Positions 28,498 through 36,520 of a DNA stretch of 64,000 bases are shown in pieces; within the stretch, counting starts at the first letter, position 1; each line of letters begins with the position of its first letter. The DNA comes from Cellulosimicrobium arenosum (GTDB lineage: Bacteria; Actinomycetota; Actinomycetes; Actinomycetales; Cellulomonadaceae), in contig NZ_JACYHB010000005.1 in the NCBI RefSeq assembly GCF_014837295.1, forward strand, positions 1 to 64,000. The letters are read 5' to 3'. The notes below the pieces were generated by a model. It saw only the letters and a list, made by a program, of their open reading frames with translations. It searched no databases and was not told the DNA's origin. The position numbers were made by a program, and so were the translations under genes.

Positions 28498-28749
28498 ATG
28501 CAGATCCGCACCGACGGTGTGACCTGGCAGGAGATCGACGGCGAGCTGGTCCTGCTGGACCTCGAGCGTTCCGTCTACCTGACGACCAACGCCAGCGGCG
28601 CGCTGCTGACCAAGCTGCTCGTCGAGGACCGCAGTCTCGACGACCTCGCCGACGCCCTCGTCGCCCAGTTCGAGATCCAGCGTGACGACGCGCTGCGTGA
28701 CGCGCAGGCGTTCGTGGACGAGCTCGTCGAGCACCAGCTGCTCCGCTGA
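28498..28749 (+). CDS. PqqD-like RiPP recognition element (lasso B1 protein)
   Basis: An 83-aa protein with the PqqD/RRE winged-helix pattern: an opening strand V-x-W-x-E-I-D-G-E-L-V-L-L-D-L-E-R-S-V-Y-x-L-T (first residues near 9), T-N-A-S-G-A-L-L, then helices with D-D-L-A-D-A-L. In lasso-peptide systems this stand-alone B1 protein binds the leader and brings it to the protease (family knowledge). The ATG follows GGAGG by 5 nt. It is convergent with the B2 protease gene (7-nt gap) and lies on the opposite strand from the rest of the peptide genes, 33 nt after the PAP2 gene. Confidence 0.9.
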   Translation: MQIRTDGVTWQEIDGELVLLDLERSVYLTTNASGALLTKLLVEDRSLDDLADALVAQFEIQRDDALRDAQAFVDELVEHQLLR

Positions 28750-28756
28750 CTCCGGC

Positions 28757-29254
28757 TCAGGAGACTCCGGCGGGCAACCGCTCGAATCCGACGGGCGGGC
28801 GCGCCAGGACGTGGAAGTCGTCGATCGTCCACCCCTCGACCTCGATCCACGCGTGCGCGGCGACGGCGCCGCCCCGCTTCGCGACGCCGAGGACCAGCCG
28901 AGGCGCCCGCCGGCGCAGGACGTGGCCGACGAGGAGCGACTGCCGCAAGCACGTCCCGTCGACCCCGGGGACGGACAGCACCCGGCGCGCGTCCTCGACG
29001 CCGACCCGCTCGCGAACGCTCAGCTCGAGCGGCGCCGGACGATCGGTGGCCGGTGTCGCCGACGACGCGGGCGTCGGTGGCGCGTCGGCCAGCGGCACGC
29101 CTGCCCACCCCGAGACGCGTGGCAGACGCGCCGTCCGGACGCCGATCTCGATCGCGACGACGAGCCCCGCCGTCCGGACGAGGCCCGGCCACCGGGAGAG
29201 CGGCACTCGTCGTGCCCCGCGCGCCAGCCGACGCAGCGTCGTCACGGCGCTCAT
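28757..29254 (-). CDS. lasso peptide leader protease (B2, transglutaminase-like)
   Basis: A 165-aa protein of the lasso-peptide biosynthesis B2 family, a transglutaminase-fold cysteine protease that removes the leader. The catalytic Cys lies in G-T-C-L-R-Q-S-L (C102) and the His in A-H-A-W-I-E-V-E (H134), with a following Asp pair (W-T-I-D-D) as third-residue candidates. It is a split form lacking the RRE, which is supplied by the gene at 28498. The ATG at 29252-29254 overlaps the stop of the cyclase gene (ATGA, 4 nt), showing that it is the last gene of the minus-strand peptide operon. Confidence 0.92.
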   Translation of the reverse strand: MSAVTTLRRLARGARRVPLSRWPGLVRTAGLVVAIEIGVRTARLPRVSGWAGVPLADAPPTPASSATPATDRPAPLELSVRERVGVEDARRVLSVPGVDGTCLRQSLLVGHVLRRRAPRLVLGVAKRGGAVAAHAWIEVEGWTIDDFHVLARPPVGFERLPAGVS

Positions 29255-30420
29255 GCCGTGGTCCGGGTGGTCCGTGGGGCGGTCGCGAGCCACGCCGCAT
29301 GGACGAGGAACTGGGCAGAGGGCAGCGCATCTCCCAACCACTCGCGCCGCAGGCGCTCGACGTCGACGAGCTCGGGGTCCACACCGCTACCGTCCCACGA
29401 GGCGGCGAAGTCGCGCTCGCGGTCGCCCCAGCGGGAGGAGTTGAAGCGCGCCTTGGTCGAGCGTGCCAGGACATCGTCGGGCAGCAGGTCGGCGCCGAGG
29501 CGGCGGAACGTGTCCGTCCGACCACGGAACCCCCGTGCGCCGCCGTCCGCCGCGAGCGCCGCCACGAACGACTCGTCCGCGAGGGGGTGGCTGAGCGTCA
29601 CGCCCTGCTCCGCGGCGCCTGCGACGATGTTGTGCAGCGCGATGACCGAGCCGCGGCGCTCCATGAGCGCGCGCTTGGCCGCGTCCCAACGCAACGGCCC
29701 GCGCGCCTCGACCGACTCGCGGACGAGGGCCCGGAGCGCTCGCGGCCGGAGCCAGGGCGCCGCGTCGTGCAGACCGTCCCCGTGCAGGAGGCGCCACCGT
29801 GCGAGGGTCGACGGCTCGAGCGCCCCGATCGCGGCCCGCACGAGTGCGCGCGACGGCCGCCGGCGGGAGGAAGCGAGGAGGTGCAGGGGCGTCCCGCGCA
29901 CCGGGGCCAGCACGCCGTCACCGGCCTCGCCCGTGAGCACGTACACGCCGTGGCCGAGCCCGTCGAACAGCATCGGCTGGCTCTGCACCGCGGCGGGCCA
30001 CACGAGGCCCCGCCGTGCGAGGGATCCCACCGAGACGTCGCCCAGGAGACTTCGCTCGGCACGAACCTCGATCACGATGCGCTCCGTCAGGCGGAGATGC
30101 CCGAGGACGCGGGCCTGCCACTCGCTCTCGTCGGCCTCGGGCATCCCCGGGTACACCGCCGTGACCGGGACGGGAAGCGGAAGACCCTCCCTGCGTGCGA
30201 CCGCGGTCGCGACCGCGAGGACGAGGGAGGAGTCGCGCCCCCCGGAGAACAGCACGCGGCAGGAACCGGTACGGAGCGCGGGGAGAACGGAACGCTCGAG
30301 CGCGGCGCGCGCGGAGCCGACGACGGTCGCCCGCAGCGCGTGCTCGGACGTGCCGACAGGAGCAGAGAGCGCGACCTCGAACGGAGTGAGCCGCCGGAAC
30401 GGGTCGGGACGGTCGTCCAC
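29251..30420 (-). CDS. asparagine synthetase-like lasso cyclase, copy 1
   Basis: A 389-aa asparagine-synthetase-type ATP pyrophosphatase. The ATP loop S-G-G-R-D-S-S is at residues 59-65 and the C-terminal synthetase lobe follows (H-P-L-A-D-E-S-F, then R-S-T-K-A-R-F-N-S-S-R-W-G). The N-terminal glutaminase domain of true AsnB is reduced to ~55 unrelated residues, as in lasso C proteins, which adenylate an Asp or Glu side chain of the core and close the macrolactam on the N-terminus. GTG start 30418-30420 follows GAGG by 7 nt. It lies downstream of precursor 1 across a hairpin and overlaps B2. It is a diverged paralogue of the gene at 30786. Confidence 0.92.
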   Translation of the reverse strand: MDDRPDPFRRLTPFEVALSAPVGTSEHALRATVVGSARAALERSVLPALRTGSCRVLFSGGRDSSLVLAVATAVARREGLPLPVPVTAVYPGMPEADESEWQARVLGHLRLTERIVIEVRAERSLLGDVSVGSLARRGLVWPAAVQSQPMLFDGLGHGVYVLTGEAGDGVLAPVRGTPLHLLASSRRRPSRALVRAAIGALEPSTLARWRLLHGDGLHDAAPWLRPRALRALVRESVEARGPLRWDAAKRALMERRGSVIALHNIVAGAAEQGVTLSHPLADESFVAALAADGGARGFRGRTDTFRRLGADLLPDDVLARSTKARFNSSRWGDRERDFAASWDGSGVDPELVDVERLRREWLGDALPSAQFLVHAAWLATAPRTTRTTA

Positions 30421-30443
30421 AGGTCAACCTCGAGATCGGGTGC

Positions 30444-30480
30444 TGCTGCGCGACGCCGTGCCAGACGGCGCCGCGCAGCA
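30444..30480 (-). promoter_or_regulatory. attenuator-type hairpin between precursor 1 and cyclase 1
   Basis: Arms 30444-30458 and 30466-30480 pair over 15 positions with one mismatch and a 7-nt loop, just after the precursor 1 stop. Hairpins here in lasso operons are thought to raise the precursor-to-enzyme ratio. Confidence 0.65.
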
Positions 30481-30487
30481 CAGGTGG

Positions 30488-30646
30488 TCAGCTCAGGTCA
30501 CTGCCGTCGTCGTCGCCGGAGCCGGGGAGCGGGATCTTGTGCCCGTAGAAGTACGCCTCGTCCTGGTACTCGCGCCAGGTGTCCCACCCGAGCGTCAGTC
30601 CGCGCACGGAGCCGACACGCGAGATCTTGGGTGCCTCGTAAGCCAT
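30488..30646 (-). CDS. lasso-type RiPP precursor 1, 52 aa
   Basis: Found by reading the gap between the two cyclase genes. The ATG at 30644-30646 follows AGGAGG by 5 nt, an excellent ribosome binding site. The first 20 residues fit the lasso leader pattern Y-x-x-P-x-I-x-x-V-G-x-V-x-G-L-T-L-G. With Thr at the -2 position the core would begin GWDTWREYQD, giving Glu at core position 7 as ring acceptor; if cleavage is one residue later, Asp falls at position 9. The core is long (32-33 residues) with an acidic Gly/Asp tail and ends in Asp-Leu-Ser. A C-terminal Ser is the site used by lasso-peptide kinases. Confidence 0.88.
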   Translation of the reverse strand: MAYEAPKISRVGSVRGLTLGWDTWREYQDEAYFYGHKIPLPGSGDDDGSDLS

Positions 30647-30784
30647 CGTTTCCTCCTCTCACGATGTCGTGCTCGTCATCACGGTCGGTGACCGGACGGC
30701 CTTTCACCTCGCCGCAGGCGATCGTTTCCAGCAATCGTGAGCGTAGGCCCGATCGTTTGCGGCGAGAACCTTTCCGGGGTGTAT

Positions 30785-30791
30785 TTCACCC
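30785..30791 (-). promoter_or_regulatory. GGGTGAA motif upstream of precursor 1
   Basis: GGGTGAA on the minus strand, inside the palindrome TCACCCGGGTGA, 140 nt upstream of the precursor 1 start and at the stop of cyclase 2. Two direct copies of CGATCGTTT (near 30718 and 30750) lie between it and the gene. Confidence 0.45.
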
Positions 30792-31955
30792 GGGTGACCG
30801 GCTGGCCCCTCCCGAGCCGATCCAGGCCGCGTGCAGCAGCAGCTCTGCGGCCGCGGGAGGTGCGGTCGTCGCCCAGGATGCGCGCAGCACGTCGTGGTCG
30901 ACGAGGTCCCGGTCGATGCCCGACCCGTCCCAGCTCCGTGCGAACGCCCGTTCCTCGGGCCCCCACCGCGTCGCGTTGAACCAGGCCTTGGACGTGCGTG
31001 CGAGGACCGCGTCGGGAAGCAGGTCCGCGGCGAGGCGACGCATCACGTCCGTGCGACCGGCGAAGCCCCAGGCGCCGCCGTCCACGGCGAGCGCCCCGAC
31101 GAACCGTGGGTCGACCAGCGGGTGGACGTAGCGGACGTCGTGCTCGCGCGCGACGACCGACAGGTTGTTCAGGACGACGTGCGTCGCCCGCGAGCCGAGC
31201 AGACCGTGCACGGCACGGTCCCAGCGCAACGGCGACGTGTCGTCGGCGGCGAGCCGCGACGCTGCCTCGCTCGCGGCGTCCTGGCGCAACCACTCGGGCA
31301 GGGCGTCGCGGTACCGGCCACGGGGGAGCGTGCGGACCGGCCGGAGGGCGCCCGCGACCTCGCGGAGCAGACGTCGGGTCGGCAGGGCAGGTGTCGCGAG
31401 GCGACGCCGCAGGAGGTACAGGGGCGTGCCGCGACGCCGGTTGAGGACGTCGTCGCCGCCTTCGCCGGTCAGCAGGTACCCTCCCGTGGCCTGGGCGAGC
31501 CGCACACCGTCGACCTGGGCCACGGCGGGGAACACGAGACCACGACTCGCGAGGCCGGCACGTGCGGCCTCTCCGAGCAGGCGCATCTCGTCCGTCACCC
31601 GCACGACGACGCGCTCGCGAAGACCGAGGTGGGCCAGCACGAGCTCCTGCCACTCCGTCTCATCAGCCCCCGCGACCCCAGGGAATGTCAGGGTGAGGGG
31701 CACGGGGAGCGGGAGGCCGTCGCGCCGGGCGACGTGGGCGGCGACCGCCAGCACCAGCGACGAGTCCCGCCCGCCCGAGAAACCGACGAACGTCGGCGCC
31801 GCTGCGAGCGACTCGCGGACGACCGCCTCGAGAACGGCGCGCGCCCCTCCGGTACGGGGTATCTGAGGGGCGCGCGTGCGTCCGAAGACCCACCCGCTCG
31901 CGATCTCGAGATCGTCGACACGGAGGAGGTCAGGATGATGACCCGGAAGGGTCAC
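30786..31955 (-). CDS. asparagine synthetase-like lasso cyclase, copy 2
   Basis: The second ATP-pyrophosphatase cyclase is also 389 aa. S-G-G-R-D-S-S is at residues 60-66; the C-terminal lobe carries H-P-L-V-D-P-R-F and R-T-S-K-A-W-F-N-A-T-R-W-G, aligning with copy 1 throughout its length. The frame stays open upstream across the whole precursor 2 gene, but the GTG at 31953-31955, two nt after the precursor 2 stop, gives a product of exactly the same length as copy 1 and is preferred. No separate ribosome binding site is seen, so translation is probably coupled to precursor 2. Its partner peptide lacks the usual acidic ring acceptor. Confidence 0.9.
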   Translation of the reverse strand: MTLPGHHPDLLRVDDLEIASGWVFGRTRAPQIPRTGGARAVLEAVVRESLAAAPTFVGFSGGRDSSLVLAVAAHVARRDGLPLPVPLTLTFPGVAGADETEWQELVLAHLGLRERVVVRVTDEMRLLGEAARAGLASRGLVFPAVAQVDGVRLAQATGGYLLTGEGGDDVLNRRRGTPLYLLRRRLATPALPTRRLLREVAGALRPVRTLPRGRYRDALPEWLRQDAASEAASRLAADDTSPLRWDRAVHGLLGSRATHVVLNNLSVVAREHDVRYVHPLVDPRFVGALAVDGGAWGFAGRTDVMRRLAADLLPDAVLARTSKAWFNATRWGPEERAFARSWDGSGIDRDLVDHDVLRASWATTAPPAAAELLLHAAWIGSGGASRSPG

Positions 31956-31957
31956 TT

Positions 31958-32140
31958 CTAGGACAGCGGGTCGCCGGGTCCGCAGCCGGGCTTCCAGTCG
32001 CCGCTCCCGTCTGCCAGGCCAGGCAGCTGGTTGGGCAGGGTGTTGTCGGCGCCGTGCCCGTACTTGCAGTTCTGCGGGTAGCCGAGGGTCAGGCCCTGGA
32101 CCGTTCCCACGGAGGTGATCGAGGGCGGTGAGTACATCAT
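31958..32140 (-). CDS. lasso-type RiPP precursor 2, 60 aa, non-canonical core
   Basis: The first 20 residues align without gaps to precursor 1 and keep the Y-x-x-P-x-I-x-x-V-G-x-V-x-G-L-T-L-G leader motif, so the same RRE and protease should process it. The core begins (G)YPQNCKYGHGAD and is Gly/Pro/Asn-rich, with two Cys (core positions 6 and 34, counting Gly as 1). No Asp or Glu lies at core positions 7-9; the first acidic residue is Asp13. It ends in Asp-Pro-Leu-Ser. Two consecutive ATGs are possible starts. GAAAGG lies about 10 nt upstream of the first. The product may have an unusual ring or a disulfide; this is inference. Confidence 0.85.
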   Translation of the reverse strand: MMYSPPSITSVGTVQGLTLGYPQNCKYGHGADNTLPNQLPGLADGSGDWKPGCGPGDPLS

Positions 32141-32256
32141 GAGCCACCGACCTTTCTATCGGGTCGCCCGGAGGCGAGGGATCCGTCGCACGCGGCTGCG
32201 CCCGACCTCGATGAGAATACCGGCGCCGAGGGCGTGACCCGGGGGCCCGTGCAACA

Positions 32257-32285
32257 TTCCACCCGCAGCGGTGGAAAGTTCACCC
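32257..32285 (-). promoter_or_regulatory. GGGTGAA motif and variant upstream of precursor 2
   Basis: TTCACCC at 32279-32285 and a one-base-longer variant TTCCACCC at 32257-32264 share CACCCG spaced by 21 nt, about 120-145 nt upstream of precursor 2. Confidence 0.5.
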
Positions 32286-32309
32286 GAACGGGCTGGACGG
32301 CCGTCCAGG

Positions 32310-33467
32310 TCAGCTCGACCGAGAAGTTTCCGTGACCGAGCGGAAGTAGTCCCGCCTCGCCTGCCCGTCCGGCACGTCGACCTGCAGCGGGCGACGCTCG
32401 TCCAGCCCTGCGTCGTGCTGACGGCCTGCACGCCGCGCGGCGAGGTGGTGGCGGGCGAGGACTCCCGCGCTGTCGAGCACCCCGCGGCGTGCCGCGGAGT
32501 ACTCGTTGCCGCCGAGCGCCGGGTCTCCGGGAAGCCCGGGGAAGGGCCGACGGGCGTCGCGCAACCCGGTCAGCCGGACCCAGGCGGGAGCCGGACCGCG
32601 CGGTACCCGGTCCGACGGGAGTCCGAGCACCCGGTGCACGCGCGCGAGGACCGACCGGACGCCGAGCCAGGTCCCCGCCGCGCGCGAGCGACGTTCGAGC
32701 TCGGCGACGTCGACCTGGCCGTGCTCGAGCGCGAAGCGGACGTCCGCGAGCCACATGAGCCGGTTGGCGCCGGCCTGCGCCGCGTGGAAGGCGAGGTGGA
32801 GCACCGTGTCGACGGGATCGAGCGTGGGCACCGCGCGTCCTCCCACCTCGACGTGGCGGCGCCGTCCGAGCATGGCGTCGATGTCGAGGGGGAACGCGCG
32901 CCGCAGCTCCGCCGGGACGGCGACGTGCCAGTGCAGGTCGAGCGGTGTCCCGGCGGGGGTCAGCATCGCGAGCTCCGCGCGGCCGGTGCGCCGGATCTCC
33001 GGCCAGTTCCGGTCGAGCAGACGGACCCCGCGCTCCTGCAGCGCCGCCACCGCGTCCTCGAACCGGTGCGGCGCGACCACGAGGTCGACGTCGTAGTACT
33101 CGCGCATGTTCACGACGGGCCAGATCGCTCCGGCGAGCACCGGACCCTTCACGACGACCCACGGGACCGCGGCCGCGTCCAGGACCGCGCCCGCACCGGC
33201 CACGTCCGCGAGCGCCCGCAGGTGCCGCATGAGCTGGTCGTGCTTGGCCTGCTCGAGGGCTGCGCGCCAGCCTGCCGGCTCGTCCGGCCACGCGCGCGTC
33301 ACGCGCTCGACGGCAGGCGTCACGCGGTGCAGCCGGCCGGCTGCGACCACGTCCTCGGGCGAGGTGCCGCGCAGCCCCGGCGGGCACGACGTCCCGGCGT
33401 CCTCGCGGACGGCGTCGATCAGCAGCCGGGCGAGCGGTCGCAGCGTCGTGTCGTCCTGCGCCGTCAC
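32310..33467 (-). CDS. nucleotidyltransferase family protein (lasso tailoring N protein)
   Basis: A 385-aa protein of the NTP_transf_5/NTase family: V-V-V-K-G-P-V-L-A followed by the metal-binding M-R-E-Y-Y-D-V-D-L-V-V at about residues 110-120, then a conserved P-L-D-L-H-W-H strand and a helical half. Homologues accompany an HPr-kinase-like gene in paeninodin/pseudomycoidin-type lasso clusters, where they modify the phosphorylated peptide (family knowledge). The GTG start at 33465-33467 follows GGGGAGG by 10 nt. It is first on the minus-strand side of the cluster, 169 nt upstream of precursor 2 and divergent from the ABC exporter. Confidence 0.85.
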   Translation of the reverse strand: MTAQDDTTLRPLARLLIDAVREDAGTSCPPGLRGTSPEDVVAAGRLHRVTPAVERVTRAWPDEPAGWRAALEQAKHDQLMRHLRALADVAGAGAVLDAAAVPWVVVKGPVLAGAIWPVVNMREYYDVDLVVAPHRFEDAVAALQERGVRLLDRNWPEIRRTGRAELAMLTPAGTPLDLHWHVAVPAELRRAFPLDIDAMLGRRRHVEVGGRAVPTLDPVDTVLHLAFHAAQAGANRLMWLADVRFALEHGQVDVAELERRSRAAGTWLGVRSVLARVHRVLGLPSDRVPRGPAPAWVRLTGLRDARRPFPGLPGDPALGGNEYSAARRGVLDSAGVLARHHLAARRAGRQHDAGLDERRPLQVDVPDGQARRDYFRSVTETSRSS

Positions 33468-33582
33468 CGCCGTCCTGCCTCCCCTCGGTCGACCGCCGTG
33501 CGTCAGGTCGTCGTTCCGTCGCGCACCGGCCGCGAGCGACAGTACCGCGCGACGTCGGCGGTGCGGTGCCCCGTGGCGAGGT

Positions 33583-33589
33583 TTCACCC
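33583..33589 (-). promoter_or_regulatory. GGGTGAA motif in divergent nucleotidyltransferase/ABC promoter
   Basis: TTTCACCCG at 33582-33590 is a single copy in the 205-bp space between the nucleotidyltransferase and exporter genes. Confidence 0.45.
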
Positions 33590-33672
33590 GACGCAGCGCT
33601 CCTGCGTGTGGTCGGGCGCTGAGACACTGGCGAAGCGGTCGGCAGGACCGTGCGACGCGAGGAGGATCTGCC

Positions 33673-35541
33673 ATGGCAGGCGACGGCGAGACGTTCGTCG
33701 ACCCGCTCGACCTGCGGGTGCGCGAGCGCAACCAGCGGCGTTCGTTCCGCCGCGGCGCCACGCTGGTCGCGCGCAGCACGTCCCTGGTCTGGAGCTCGGG
33801 TCGCTGGTTGTTCCTCGCGCTCGCCGCCCTCCAGCTCGTCGGAGCCGTCCTGCTCGCCGGACAGGTGCTGGTGGTCGAACGCTTTCTCAATGCCGTCGTC
33901 GACCTGTCCGAGGGCGGCAGCATGCAGGGCCTCGTCGGACCGGTCGCGGCCCTCGCCGTCCTCATGGGCGCGGCAGCGCTGGTCGGCAGCGTCCAGGGCT
34001 CGATCCGCCGGTTCCTCGCCGACTCCGTCGCGCGACGGACCTGGCAGCAGGTCCTCGCGGTCGCGACGCGCGTGAGCCTGCGGCAGTTCGAGTCCCCCGC
34101 GTTCTACGACTCGCTGCAGCGGGTCAGCGCGAACGCCGCGAGCCGTCCACTGCAGGTGACGCAGGCGCTCCTCGGCGCGTTCGGCAGCGCCGCGGTCACC
34201 GTGACGGTGGGGTTGACGCTCGCTGCCATCCATCCCGCGCTCCTCGGGCTGCTCGTCCTCGGTGGGCTGCCGCTGCTGCTCACGAACCGGCGCGAGAGCC
34301 GGTTGGAGTTCGACTTCTCCGTCCGTCAGACCTACCCGGCGCGCGAGCGGGGCTACCTGTCGATCGTCCTCACGGGCCGCAACGAGGCGAAGGAGATCCG
34401 CGCCTTCGGGCTCGGCCGCACGCTGCGCCGCAGGTTCGACGGGTTGTACGGGCGGTACCAGGAGGACCTGGCCGTCCACCTGCGGCGCCGGACACTCCTG
34501 AGCGTCGTGGGGAACCTCGCCTCGGCTCTCGTCCTCGCGGTGACGCTGTTCTTCGTCGTCTGGCTCATCGCGCAGGGCGAGATGACGGTGGCACAGGCGG
34601 GTGCGGCCATCGTCGCGATCCGCATGCTGCAGGGCCAGGTCGCGACCCTGCTCGGGTCGGTGCAGTCCATCTTCGAGGCAGGGCTCTTCCTCGACGACGT
34701 CGACGCGTTCATGGAGCTGGGCCCGTCCGCGGACTCCCTCGAGGCCGGCGACCCGGCCCCCGAGTCGTTCGCGGAGATCCACGCGCAGGACGTGGGCTTC
34801 ACGTACCCGGGCAGCGACGTGCCCGCGCTGCGCGGGGTCGACGTGACGATCCGGCGCGGCGAGGTGGTGGCGCTCGTCGGGGAGAACGGGTCCGGGAAGA
34901 CGACGCTCGCGAAGATCCTCGCGGGGCTCTACGACGCCGACGACGGCGCCGTCCGGTGGGACGGCCGCGACACGCGCACCCTGGACCGCTCGACCGTGCG
35001 CGAGCGCGTGGCGCCGATCTTCCAGGACTTCGTCCGGTACGCGTTCTCGGCGCGCGACAACGTCGAGGTCGGGGACGTTGAGGCGCCCGGCGACGACGAC
35101 CGCGTCCGCGCCGCCGCGGGCCGTGCGGGTGCCGACGGCTTCCTGTCCGCGCTCCCCCAGGGGTACGACACGATGCTCTCGCGCCTCTTCCGGGGCGGGC
35201 GCGACCTGTCCGGCGGGCAGTGGCAGCGGGTGGCCATCGCCCGCGCGTTCTACCGCGACGCGCCCTTGATCATCCTCGACGAGCCGACGGCGTCGCTCGA
35301 CCCGCGGGGCGAGCACGACCTCTTCGAGTCCCTGCGGGACGTGCTCGCCGGGCGCACGGCGGTGTTCATCTCGCACCGCTTCTCGTCGGTGCGGTCCGCG
35401 GACCGCATCTACGTGCTCGACGAGGGCAGCGTCGCCGAGCACGGCACGCACGACGAGCTGATGGCCCGGGGCGGGCTGTACGCCGACCTGTTCACGCTGC
35501 AGGCGGACGCCTACCTCGACCCGGGGCGGTCGACGCCCTGA
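33673..35541 (+). CDS. ABC exporter with fused membrane and ATPase domains (lasso D protein)
   Basis: A 622-aa half-transporter: six hydrophobic segments between residues ~45 and 320, then a nucleotide-binding domain with Walker A G-E-N-G-S-G-K-T-T (403-411), the R-D-L-S-G-G-Q-W-Q-R signature, Walker B L-I-I-L-D-E-P-T and the H-loop F-I-S-H-R. Placement inside the RiPP cluster suggests export of, and immunity to, the mature peptides. No peptidase C39 domain is present, in keeping with leader removal by B2. The ATG at 33673 follows GAGGAGG by 8 nt. It is convergent with the kinase-like gene, 10 nt apart. Confidence 0.92.
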   Translation: MAGDGETFVDPLDLRVRERNQRRSFRRGATLVARSTSLVWSSGRWLFLALAALQLVGAVLLAGQVLVVERFLNAVVDLSEGGSMQGLVGPVAALAVLMGAAALVGSVQGSIRRFLADSVARRTWQQVLAVATRVSLRQFESPAFYDSLQRVSANAASRPLQVTQALLGAFGSAAVTVTVGLTLAAIHPALLGLLVLGGLPLLLTNRRESRLEFDFSVRQTYPARERGYLSIVLTGRNEAKEIRAFGLGRTLRRRFDGLYGRYQEDLAVHLRRRTLLSVVGNLASALVLAVTLFFVVWLIAQGEMTVAQAGAAIVAIRMLQGQVATLLGSVQSIFEAGLFLDDVDAFMELGPSADSLEAGDPAPESFAEIHAQDVGFTYPGSDVPALRGVDVTIRRGEVVALVGENGSGKTTLAKILAGLYDADDGAVRWDGRDTRTLDRSTVRERVAPIFQDFVRYAFSARDNVEVGDVEAPGDDDRVRAAAGRAGADGFLSALPQGYDTMLSRLFRGGRDLSGGQWQRVAIARAFYRDAPLIILDEPTASLDPRGEHDLFESLRDVLAGRTAVFISHRFSSVRSADRIYVLDEGSVAEHGTHDELMARGGLYADLFTLQADAYLDPGRSTP

Positions 35542-35551
35542 CCCCGGCAGC

Positions 35552-36520
35552 TCAGACGTCGAGCTCGGCGAGGAGCCGTTCAGCGAGGTCCGGCGCGAAC
35601 GGCGGGCCCCAGGGCACGCGTGCCCGGTAGACGGGCACGCTGCGCGCGATCTGGGCGACCTGGGCGAAGTGCCGGTCGACCACCGTCTTGTCCTTCCACC
35701 CGAGCAACCGCGCGTAGGTGATGAGCGCGAACACCGCGACGGTCGGCTCGATCCGCTCCACGTCGAGCTCGGCGTGCTCCCGGTCGGGCCAGGGGACGAC
35801 GATCGCGGCCAGGGGCAGCGCGTCGTCGGCACCCGCGCCGAGCCGCAGGACCTGCCGCGCGTCCGCGCTGGTGCGCACGGCGGGATCCTCGCCCTCGAAC
35901 CGGCCGACGAGCTCGTCCGCACCCTTGCGCAGGCGCAGCTCGCTCGCCCCGAGCCGGACGGAGGGCGTGCCGTCGAGGTCGACGCGCAGGACGTCGTCGG
36001 TGATCACCGAGCCGCCCGCGGCGCACAGCAGCGTCGCCATCGTCGACTTCCCCATGCCGGACGCGCCGACGAACGCGACGGCCCGACCCCCGATGTCGAC
36101 CGCGCTGCCGTGCAGGACCGCGACACCGCGCAGGTAGAGCTGGAAGGACAGCACGGCCCCGGTGACGAGGATGGCGGCGACGCCCGGGTCCGCTCCCGCA
36201 CGCAGATGGACGTGGACCGTGGCGAGGTCGGCCGAGACGTGCACGTCGCACGTGCGGTGGAAGCGCAGCAGGTAGTCCCCCGATGCCCGCTCGAAGAACG
36301 TGTAGAACGCCCGGTCGCCGTCGGCGTAGTCGAGGAGGGTCCGGGCGTCCGCCGGTTCCGAGGCGTCCACGATCTCGTCGCCCCACCGCACCGTCACGTC
36401 GACCGGCTCGGCCGGGTCCGCAGGTCGGTCCTGGTGCAGCGGCAGCTCGGACACCACGTGCAGGCCGTACAGCCGGACGTGCTCCCACCCGGCCTCGCCG
36501 ACCCCGACCCTGTGCGTCAC
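35552..36520 (-). CDS. HPr kinase-like protein (probable lasso-peptide kinase)
   Basis: A 322-aa protein whose C-terminal half resembles the HPr kinase/phosphorylase core: L-H-G-S-A-V (H137), Walker A G-A-S-G-M-G-K-S-T (152-160), then S-V-I-T-D-D (Asp175/176). The N-terminal ~110 residues are divergent. Homologues in paeninodin-type clusters phosphorylate the side chain of the C-terminal Ser of the lasso peptide (family knowledge). Both precursors here end in Ser, which supports that role. Start GTG 36518-36520 has no clear ribosome binding site. No HPr/PTS genes are nearby, arguing against carbon-catabolite function. Confidence 0.83.
   Translation of the reverse strand: MTHRVGVGEAGWEHVRLYGLHVVSELPLHQDRPADPAEPVDVTVRWGDEIVDASEPADARTLLDYADGDRAFYTFFERASGDYLLRFHRTCDVHVSADLATVHVHLRAGADPGVAAILVTGAVLSFQLYLRGVAVLHGSAVDIGGRAVAFVGASGMGKSTMATLLCAAGGSVITDDVLRVDLDGTPSVRLGASELRLRKGADELVGRFEGEDPAVRTSADARQVLRLGAGADDALPLAAIVVPWPDREHAELDVERIEPTVAVFALITYARLLGWKDKTVVDRHFAQVAQIARSVPVYRARVPWGPPFAPDLAERLLAELDV

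Follow-up and report, generated by a model that had tools for sequence, protein, structure and literature searches.

The lasso cluster and its two precursor-cyclase pairs

A 64,000-nucleotide (nt) stretch of the Cellulosimicrobium arenosum genome (contig NZ_JACYHB010000005.1, positions 1 to 64,000; hereafter the window) contains at positions 28498-36520 a cluster of the lasso type of ribosomally synthesized and post-translationally modified peptides (RiPPs). Two precursor genes (A1 and A2) and two cyclase genes (C1 and C2) lie together with single genes for a leader-binding protein (B1), a leader peptidase (B2), an ATP-binding cassette (ABC) exporter, a kinase and a nucleotidyltransferase. How did two cyclases come to share one leader peptidase, and at which residue would each of the two cores be closed? 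The original prediction had placed a two-precursor, two-cyclase cluster in this region, and all the parts that it named are open reading frames (ORFs) there with the expected family matches. The reading that we favour, with a probability of roughly 0.62, is that of a phosphorylating lasso cluster (kinase plus nucleotidyltransferase) in which two independently evolved precursor-cyclase modules would be served by one maturation set, in the steps proposed below from sequence comparison.

Origin of the two pairs

A1 (30488-30646, minus strand) encodes 52 amino acids (aa; leader MAYEAPKISRVGSVRGLTL, core GWDTWREYQDEAYFYGHKIPLPGSGDDDGSDLS) and is followed after a gap of 67 nt by C1 (29251-30420, minus strand). 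A2 (31958-32140, minus strand) encodes 60 aa (leader MMYSPPSITSVGTVQGLTL, core GYPQNCKYGHGADNTLPNQLPGLADGSGDWKPGCGPGDPLS), and C2 (30786-31955, minus strand) starts 2 nt after its stop codon. As had been predicted, each precursor lies directly upstream of its own cyclase and the two cores are unrelated. Both cyclases comprise 389 aa, begin with GTG, have an intact SGGRDSS motif and match PF00733 above the gathering score; they are the only strong Asn_synthase matches of the genome, which thus has two lasso-type cyclases.

We considered two explanations for the presence of two pairs. First, one precursor-cyclase cassette could have been duplicated in place with subsequent divergence, as the original prediction held; second, the locus could unite two modules of different ancestry. 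For a duplication speak the adjoining position of the pairs, their common orientation, the similar leaders and an identity of 49-51% between C1 and C2. About 75 related loci were taken from genome collections and all cluster genes were mapped in them. In a maximum likelihood tree of 67 cyclases C2 grouped with the cyclases of two Isoptericola-type single-cyclase clusters, L125 and L126 (support 100/100), and C1 with those of Georgenia subflava L010 and of L141-143 (99/95). The C1 group is nested in a 15-row clade (97/94) outside of which C2 is found. Constraining C1 and C2 to be sisters cost 65 log-likelihood units and was rejected by the approximately unbiased (AU) test (p=1.65e-5), so that under the model used a duplication is refuted. 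Each copy is also closer to cyclases of other genera than to its neighbour: C2 is 59-61% identical to the L125 and L126 cyclases, and C1 is 54-55% identical to its nearest relatives outside the genus.

The precursors have orthologs in other genera as well. The A1 ortholog GLDSWKEWKDETYFWGHKIPLPGTGTS is encoded in L010 beside a C1-like cyclase, this being the one cluster with such an ortholog in C1's closest clade. A2 orthologs are found beside C2-like cyclases in L125 (LPIQACKYGYGADN...GLADLSG...CFVS) and in L126 (EPIQACKLGFGSDN...GLADLSG...CFVS). Because the cyclase tree, the AU test and the precursor orthologs concur, we conclude that the locus unites two old modules and that no local duplication took place. 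Judged by these comparisons, A1-C1 and A2-C2 are distinct modules, and orthologs of each exist in other genera. A duplication in place is accordingly highly improbable; the cyclase phylogeny that the original prediction had itself named as a check put the two copies into separate clades with different clusters.

In the two Isoptericola-type genomes the A2 ortholog is the sole precursor and has its own full gene set. Judged by gene content, the A2-C2 module would therefore be functional without A1-C1. The genes common to both modules have mixed nearest relatives: B1 and the exporter point to Cellulosimicrobium marinum, the nucleotidyltransferase to the Isoptericola-type loci. The exporter is 83-84% identical to the C. 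marinum copy and about 70% identical to the Isoptericola-type copies adjoining the A2 orthologs. This mixture fits repeated reshuffling.

Leader register and position of the ring-closing residue

Leaders were anchored at Y(-17), P(-14) and T(-2), as in the BsfA register (PMC10368454). The approximately 70 family precursors share this register, and all those surveyed align without gaps up to the predicted cut. Both A1 and A2 have a YxxP...T(-2) leader in exact register. With the NCBIfam lasso leader model NF033521, A1 scored 21 bits (cut-off 19) and A2, at 15.8 bits, stayed below the cut-off. Owing to the exact register Y-17/P-14/I-12/T-2 and the orthologs elsewhere, neither precursor is a chance ORF.

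Counted from the cut set by T(-2), most family precursors carry the acceptor Asp or Glu at position 7-9. In the surveyed precursors outside the 22-row clade containing C1 and C2 an acid occupies position 8 or 9; registers of 9-11 are found in the distant outgroup (L124, L137, L148-151). In the 15-row clade with C1, Asp10 is present in 14 of 14 precursors. The A1 core has acids at positions 3, 7, 10 and 11, and so includes one in the usual range (Glu7); the acid that is invariant in its clade is Asp10. In all three A2-type precursors the first usable acid is Asp13, and in the A2 core of the window no Asp or Glu precedes it. An acid at 7-9 is hence absent from A2 with a cut at T(-2), and is present only if the cut is made about four residues later. 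A2 and its orthologs conserve a Cys, a Lys, a Gly, Asp13-Asn, GLADxSG, a second Cys and the terminal Ser. Mapped on the cyclase tree, the registers 9, 10 and 13 follow its branching, with only two changes over 58 labelled cyclases.

The lasso rings characterised to mid-2026 have 7, 8 or 9 residues only, and listed cores reach a length of at most 33 residues (PMC13352647). The predicted ring-closing residue of A2 is thus farther from the leader than in any characterised lasso peptide. From its sequence A1 still has Glu7 on which to close, but no ring of 7-9 residues can be formed by A2 from the canonical cut. Set against rings of 7-9 residues, Asp13 implies either a later cleavage, which is most likely, or an expanded ring.

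That A2 is instead a decaying or redundant relic, non-functional or not a lasso precursor at all, would account for the missing acceptor at 7-9, the absence of any acid before position 13 and the leader score under the cut-off. Yet this core type is also found in two other genomes, where it belongs to the sole precursor of a complete gene set; the core residues are conserved at a cyclase identity of 59-61%, and C2 retains the ATP-binding motif and every residue that is invariant across the aligned family. We regard a relic as improbable.

Late cleavage or an expanded ring

With a late cut, or trimming about four residues into the core, the A2-type precursors would form the nine-residue ring [N/A]-C-K-x-G-x-G-[A/S]-Asp9, which formally would be class III-like; this option has somewhat better odds. 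The conserved Cys pair would then link ring and tail in a putative disulfide: all three A2-type precursors conserve Cys6 (in T-2 numbering) together with a Cys in the tail, and class III, by comparison, has one ring and one tail Cys.

Alternatively, A2 could be cut canonically between TL and G, the site that B2 would also use in A1, and C2 would close a macrolactam of 12-13 residues on Asp13, with 10-residue rings on Asp10 in the C1/'GSR' clade ('GSR' standing for cores that end in -GSR). The leader register is constant in all precursors, one B2 must cut both A1 and A2, all 14 of the 14 Asp10-register precursors have Gly as residue 1, as for a constrained N-terminus, and in L144_2, L145 and L147 Asp10 is the sole acid among residues 1-15. 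However, only rings of 7, 8 and 9 residues have been characterised, and a change of ring size by one residue usually lowers production (PMC13352647). Moreover, residue 1 of the A2-type cores is not conserved (G/L/E), which counts for a late cut, and the orthologous cores of the outgroup loci L148/L149 and L151 keep the 9-mer GKQFGxxSD at a varying distance from T(-2), which fits a drifting junction better than a drifting ring. We therefore consider canonical cleavage with an expanded ring doubtful, and the reading of the locus as two natural lasso cyclases with distinct, enlarged rings (12-13 residues for C2, 10 for the C1/'GSR' clade) behind one leader peptidase is a shade more doubtful still. 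The calculated monoisotopic neutral masses, with one water lost and for A2 also 2 H for the disulfide, are 3757.623 (cut TL|G) and 3700.602 (TLG|W) for A1, and 4132.843 (TL|G), 4075.822 (TLG|Y), 3687.647 (Q|N) and 3573.604 (N|C) for A2; a phosphate would add 79.966 and a hexose 162.053.

Shared genes and tailoring

On the minus strand the order from 5' to 3' is kinase, nucleotidyltransferase, A2, C2, A1, C1 and B2; the exporter and B1 are on the plus strand. B1 (28498-28749, plus strand; 83 aa) is a stand-alone RiPP recognition element (RRE) of the PqqD-like type (PF05402, 56 bits), which in phmmer matches the solved lasso RREs TbiB1 and TfuB1. It is convergent with B2 (28757-29254, minus strand), a transglutaminase-like leader peptidase matching PF13471 and NF033537 (45.1 bits, cut-off 33), with the Cys/His/Asp motifs visible as GTCLRQS, AAHAW and TIDD; the start of B2 and the stop of C1 share about 4 nt. 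The nucleotidyltransferase (32310-33467, minus strand) matches PF14907 with 110 bits. The ABC exporter (33673-35541, plus strand; PF00005) and the HprK-like kinase (35552-36520, minus strand; P-loop GASGMGKS intact) are encoded on opposite strands. These five genes are common to both modules, and the kinase is found in nearly all related lasso loci.

The region thus encodes B1, B2 and an Asn-synthetase-like cyclase together with a precursor, as a lasso cluster does, and an HprK-like kinase with a PF14907 nucleotidyltransferase, so that the predicted kinase-nucleotidyltransferase type was borne out. Exactly one B2 is present in the genome. That leader handling is common to both precursors, which had likewise been expected, is well supported by these gene counts. 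An AlphaFold model of C2 (mean predicted local distance difference test score 71, eight-row alignment) matched the hydroxyamidotransferase TsnB9, asparagine synthetase and beta-lactam synthetase in the PDB; compared by sequence, the cyclase had no match among solved structures. The plasmid records searched contained no relatives of C2.

A C-terminal Ser ends A1 (...SDLS), A2 (...DPLS) and their orthologs (...GTS and ...FVS), which fits a common tailoring. Characterised counterparts of the kinase and nucleotidyltransferase phosphorylate the C-terminal Ser of pseudomycoidin and add hexoses to it (PMC8498205); by analogy with PsmN, the nucleotidyltransferase probably transfers sugar to phosphoserine. 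The cyclase subclade with cores ending in -GSR (L014, L027, L029, L032, L033, L129, L144, L145 and L147) has kept the HprK-like kinase and the nucleotidyltransferase, and therefore this sister group must have either another modification site or a different trimming step.

The 67-nt stretch between A1 and C1 (30421-30487, minus strand) contains a perfect hairpin of 16 bp (-37.1 kcal/mol, z -3.4). Long perfect hairpins between precursor and cyclase were also found in the relatives checked (L007, L010, L014, L125, L126 and L141-143), unlike the A2-C2 gap of the window with its 2 nt. The hairpin possibly sets the ratio of precursor to cyclase. A sigma-70 promoter scan found nothing.

Proposed maturation

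Both leaders would be bound by B1, which would recognise YxxPxI and T(-2), and would be removed by B2. Each core would be closed solely by its own cyclase, C1 acting on the core of the Asp-10 register and C2 on that of the Asp-13 register. The kinase and nucleotidyltransferase would act on the C-terminal Ser present in both cores, and the ABC protein would export both products. The A2 junction would be shifted, which would place the ring-closing Asp at position 13 when counting starts at the T(-2) cut. For A2 the most probable product would be a class-III-like lasso peptide of 37 residues, cut four residues late, with a ring from N/A-1 to Asp-9 and a ring-tail disulfide Cys2-Cys30.

Several points limit this scheme. 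The pairing of each precursor with the neighbouring cyclase is read from co-inheritance, and only three A2-type precursors are known. A position-weight score of candidate ring 9-mers, anchored either on Thr or on Asp and applied to ask whether the nine residues up to Asp13 look like known rings of the family, does not discriminate (P=0.86 for A2; only L126 favours the Asp-anchored form, P=0.016). The kinase profile matches are weak, TIGR00679 and PF07475 each giving 26 bits and being below cut-off. Finally, L148 and L149 each have a single cyclase together with two precursors whose registers differ (10 and 11), and therefore a difference in register does not strictly require two cyclases.

Other multi-product loci and genomic setting

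Two cyclases with one protease are not unique to the window: the window host and three other genomes have two cyclases and exactly one genomic B2. Georgenia satyanarayanai (L144) has two precursor-cyclase clusters about 10 kb apart, and in G. subflava L007 and L010 are situated 36 kb apart on one contig. The precursor-cyclase pair of L007 (core GETLQGNADWKLNNLHPSQVAPHTGLYS) stands alone, the sole cluster with a B2 in that genome lying about 36 kb away. The fourth genome belongs to a distant actinobacterium (L167, G1046:C1:2613001-2633000). One L167 precursor is divergent (GMGNTSSSDDFMCSAGDNDFHGSTGQCPPGQG) and its C-terminus is other than Ser. That two cyclases occur only where acceptor registers differ is true of the window and of both Georgenia genomes, but G1046, with two D9-like registers, and L148/L149, with registers 10 and 11 and one cyclase, are exceptions, so that we do not propose it as a rule.

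The commoner multi-product layout consists of two precursors and one cyclase (L107, L108, L111-117, L119, L121 and L123). The assumption of the original prediction that single A, C, B1, B2 and D sets are the rule holds only in part, since two precursors per lasso cluster are not exceptional and many relatives have two per cyclase. In L148 (10762 and 10931), L149 (9007 and 9177) and L151 (5125 and 5299) two precursors per cyclase are located downstream of it; their Thr-to-Asp spacing is 10 or 11 and varies between orthologs, and some have C-terminal Cys clusters. A short ORF downstream of the L002 cyclase was rejected as a second precursor with a second cyclase; the next gene is a kinase.

The lasso genes adjoin mfd in the window, in C. 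marinum and in L125, and a flavin adenine dinucleotide (FAD) oxidoreductase gene is also present there in the window and L125. The C. marinum exporter is beside the same glycosyltransferase, across mfd from the remainder of its cluster. In a genome of the same genus (L170, G001:C83, 4933-7269) the glycosyltransferase flanking the window cluster comes immediately after the FAD oxidoreductase (DAO), with no lasso genes; this locus is an empty site for comparison.

Comparison with known systems

The pseudomycoidin and paeninodin clusters of Firmicutes (PsmK/PadeK, PsmN; PMC8498205) likewise combine A, B1, B2, C and D with an HprK-like kinase and a nucleotidyltransferase, and as there the C-terminal Ser of both window cores is the presumed phosphorylation site. 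The window locus differs in combining one set with two precursors and two cyclases that are unrelated, in its separate transcription units, in being actinobacterial and in its acceptor registers (10 and 13 versus 7-9). The bsf cluster of Bradymonas sediminis (PMC10368454) shares the discrete RRE, B2, C, ABC protein, kinase and nucleotidyltransferase, and its leader motif YxxPxL at -17 to -12 resembles the window leaders; in contrast, BsfA has Ile(-2), the acceptor Asp8 and phosphorylation at Ser3, and there is one cyclase. Caulosegnin-type clusters, in which one enzyme set serves three precursors (PMC13352647), also process several cores with common enzymes. In these and in two-precursor actinobacterial loci (L107, L111, L114-117, L121 and L123) one cyclase closes all cores, whereas in the window each core would have its own cyclase of separate ancestry. 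The Isoptericola-type loci L125 (G557) and L126 (G546) share with the window the A2-type core, the C2-type cyclase and the adjacent exporter, and L125 adjoins the same mfd/FAD-oxidoreductase genes; both lack the A1-C1 module. In the open-access literature searched, subscription papers being outside its scope, neither two-cyclase lasso clusters nor lasso rings of more than nine residues were found, which is weak evidence.

The locus holds a genuine lasso cluster whose type is known, and what is new is the acceptor register. A canonical cut of A2 would overturn the accepted limit of 7-9 residues for lasso rings; a later cut would mean that one B2 recognises two sites when counted from T(-2), contrary to the rule of Thr (or Ile) at -2. 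Our comparison suggests that precursor and cyclase travel as a module, with the protease, RRE, tailoring and export in common. This would be of use for engineering, because the cyclase and not the protease appears to carry the core specificity.

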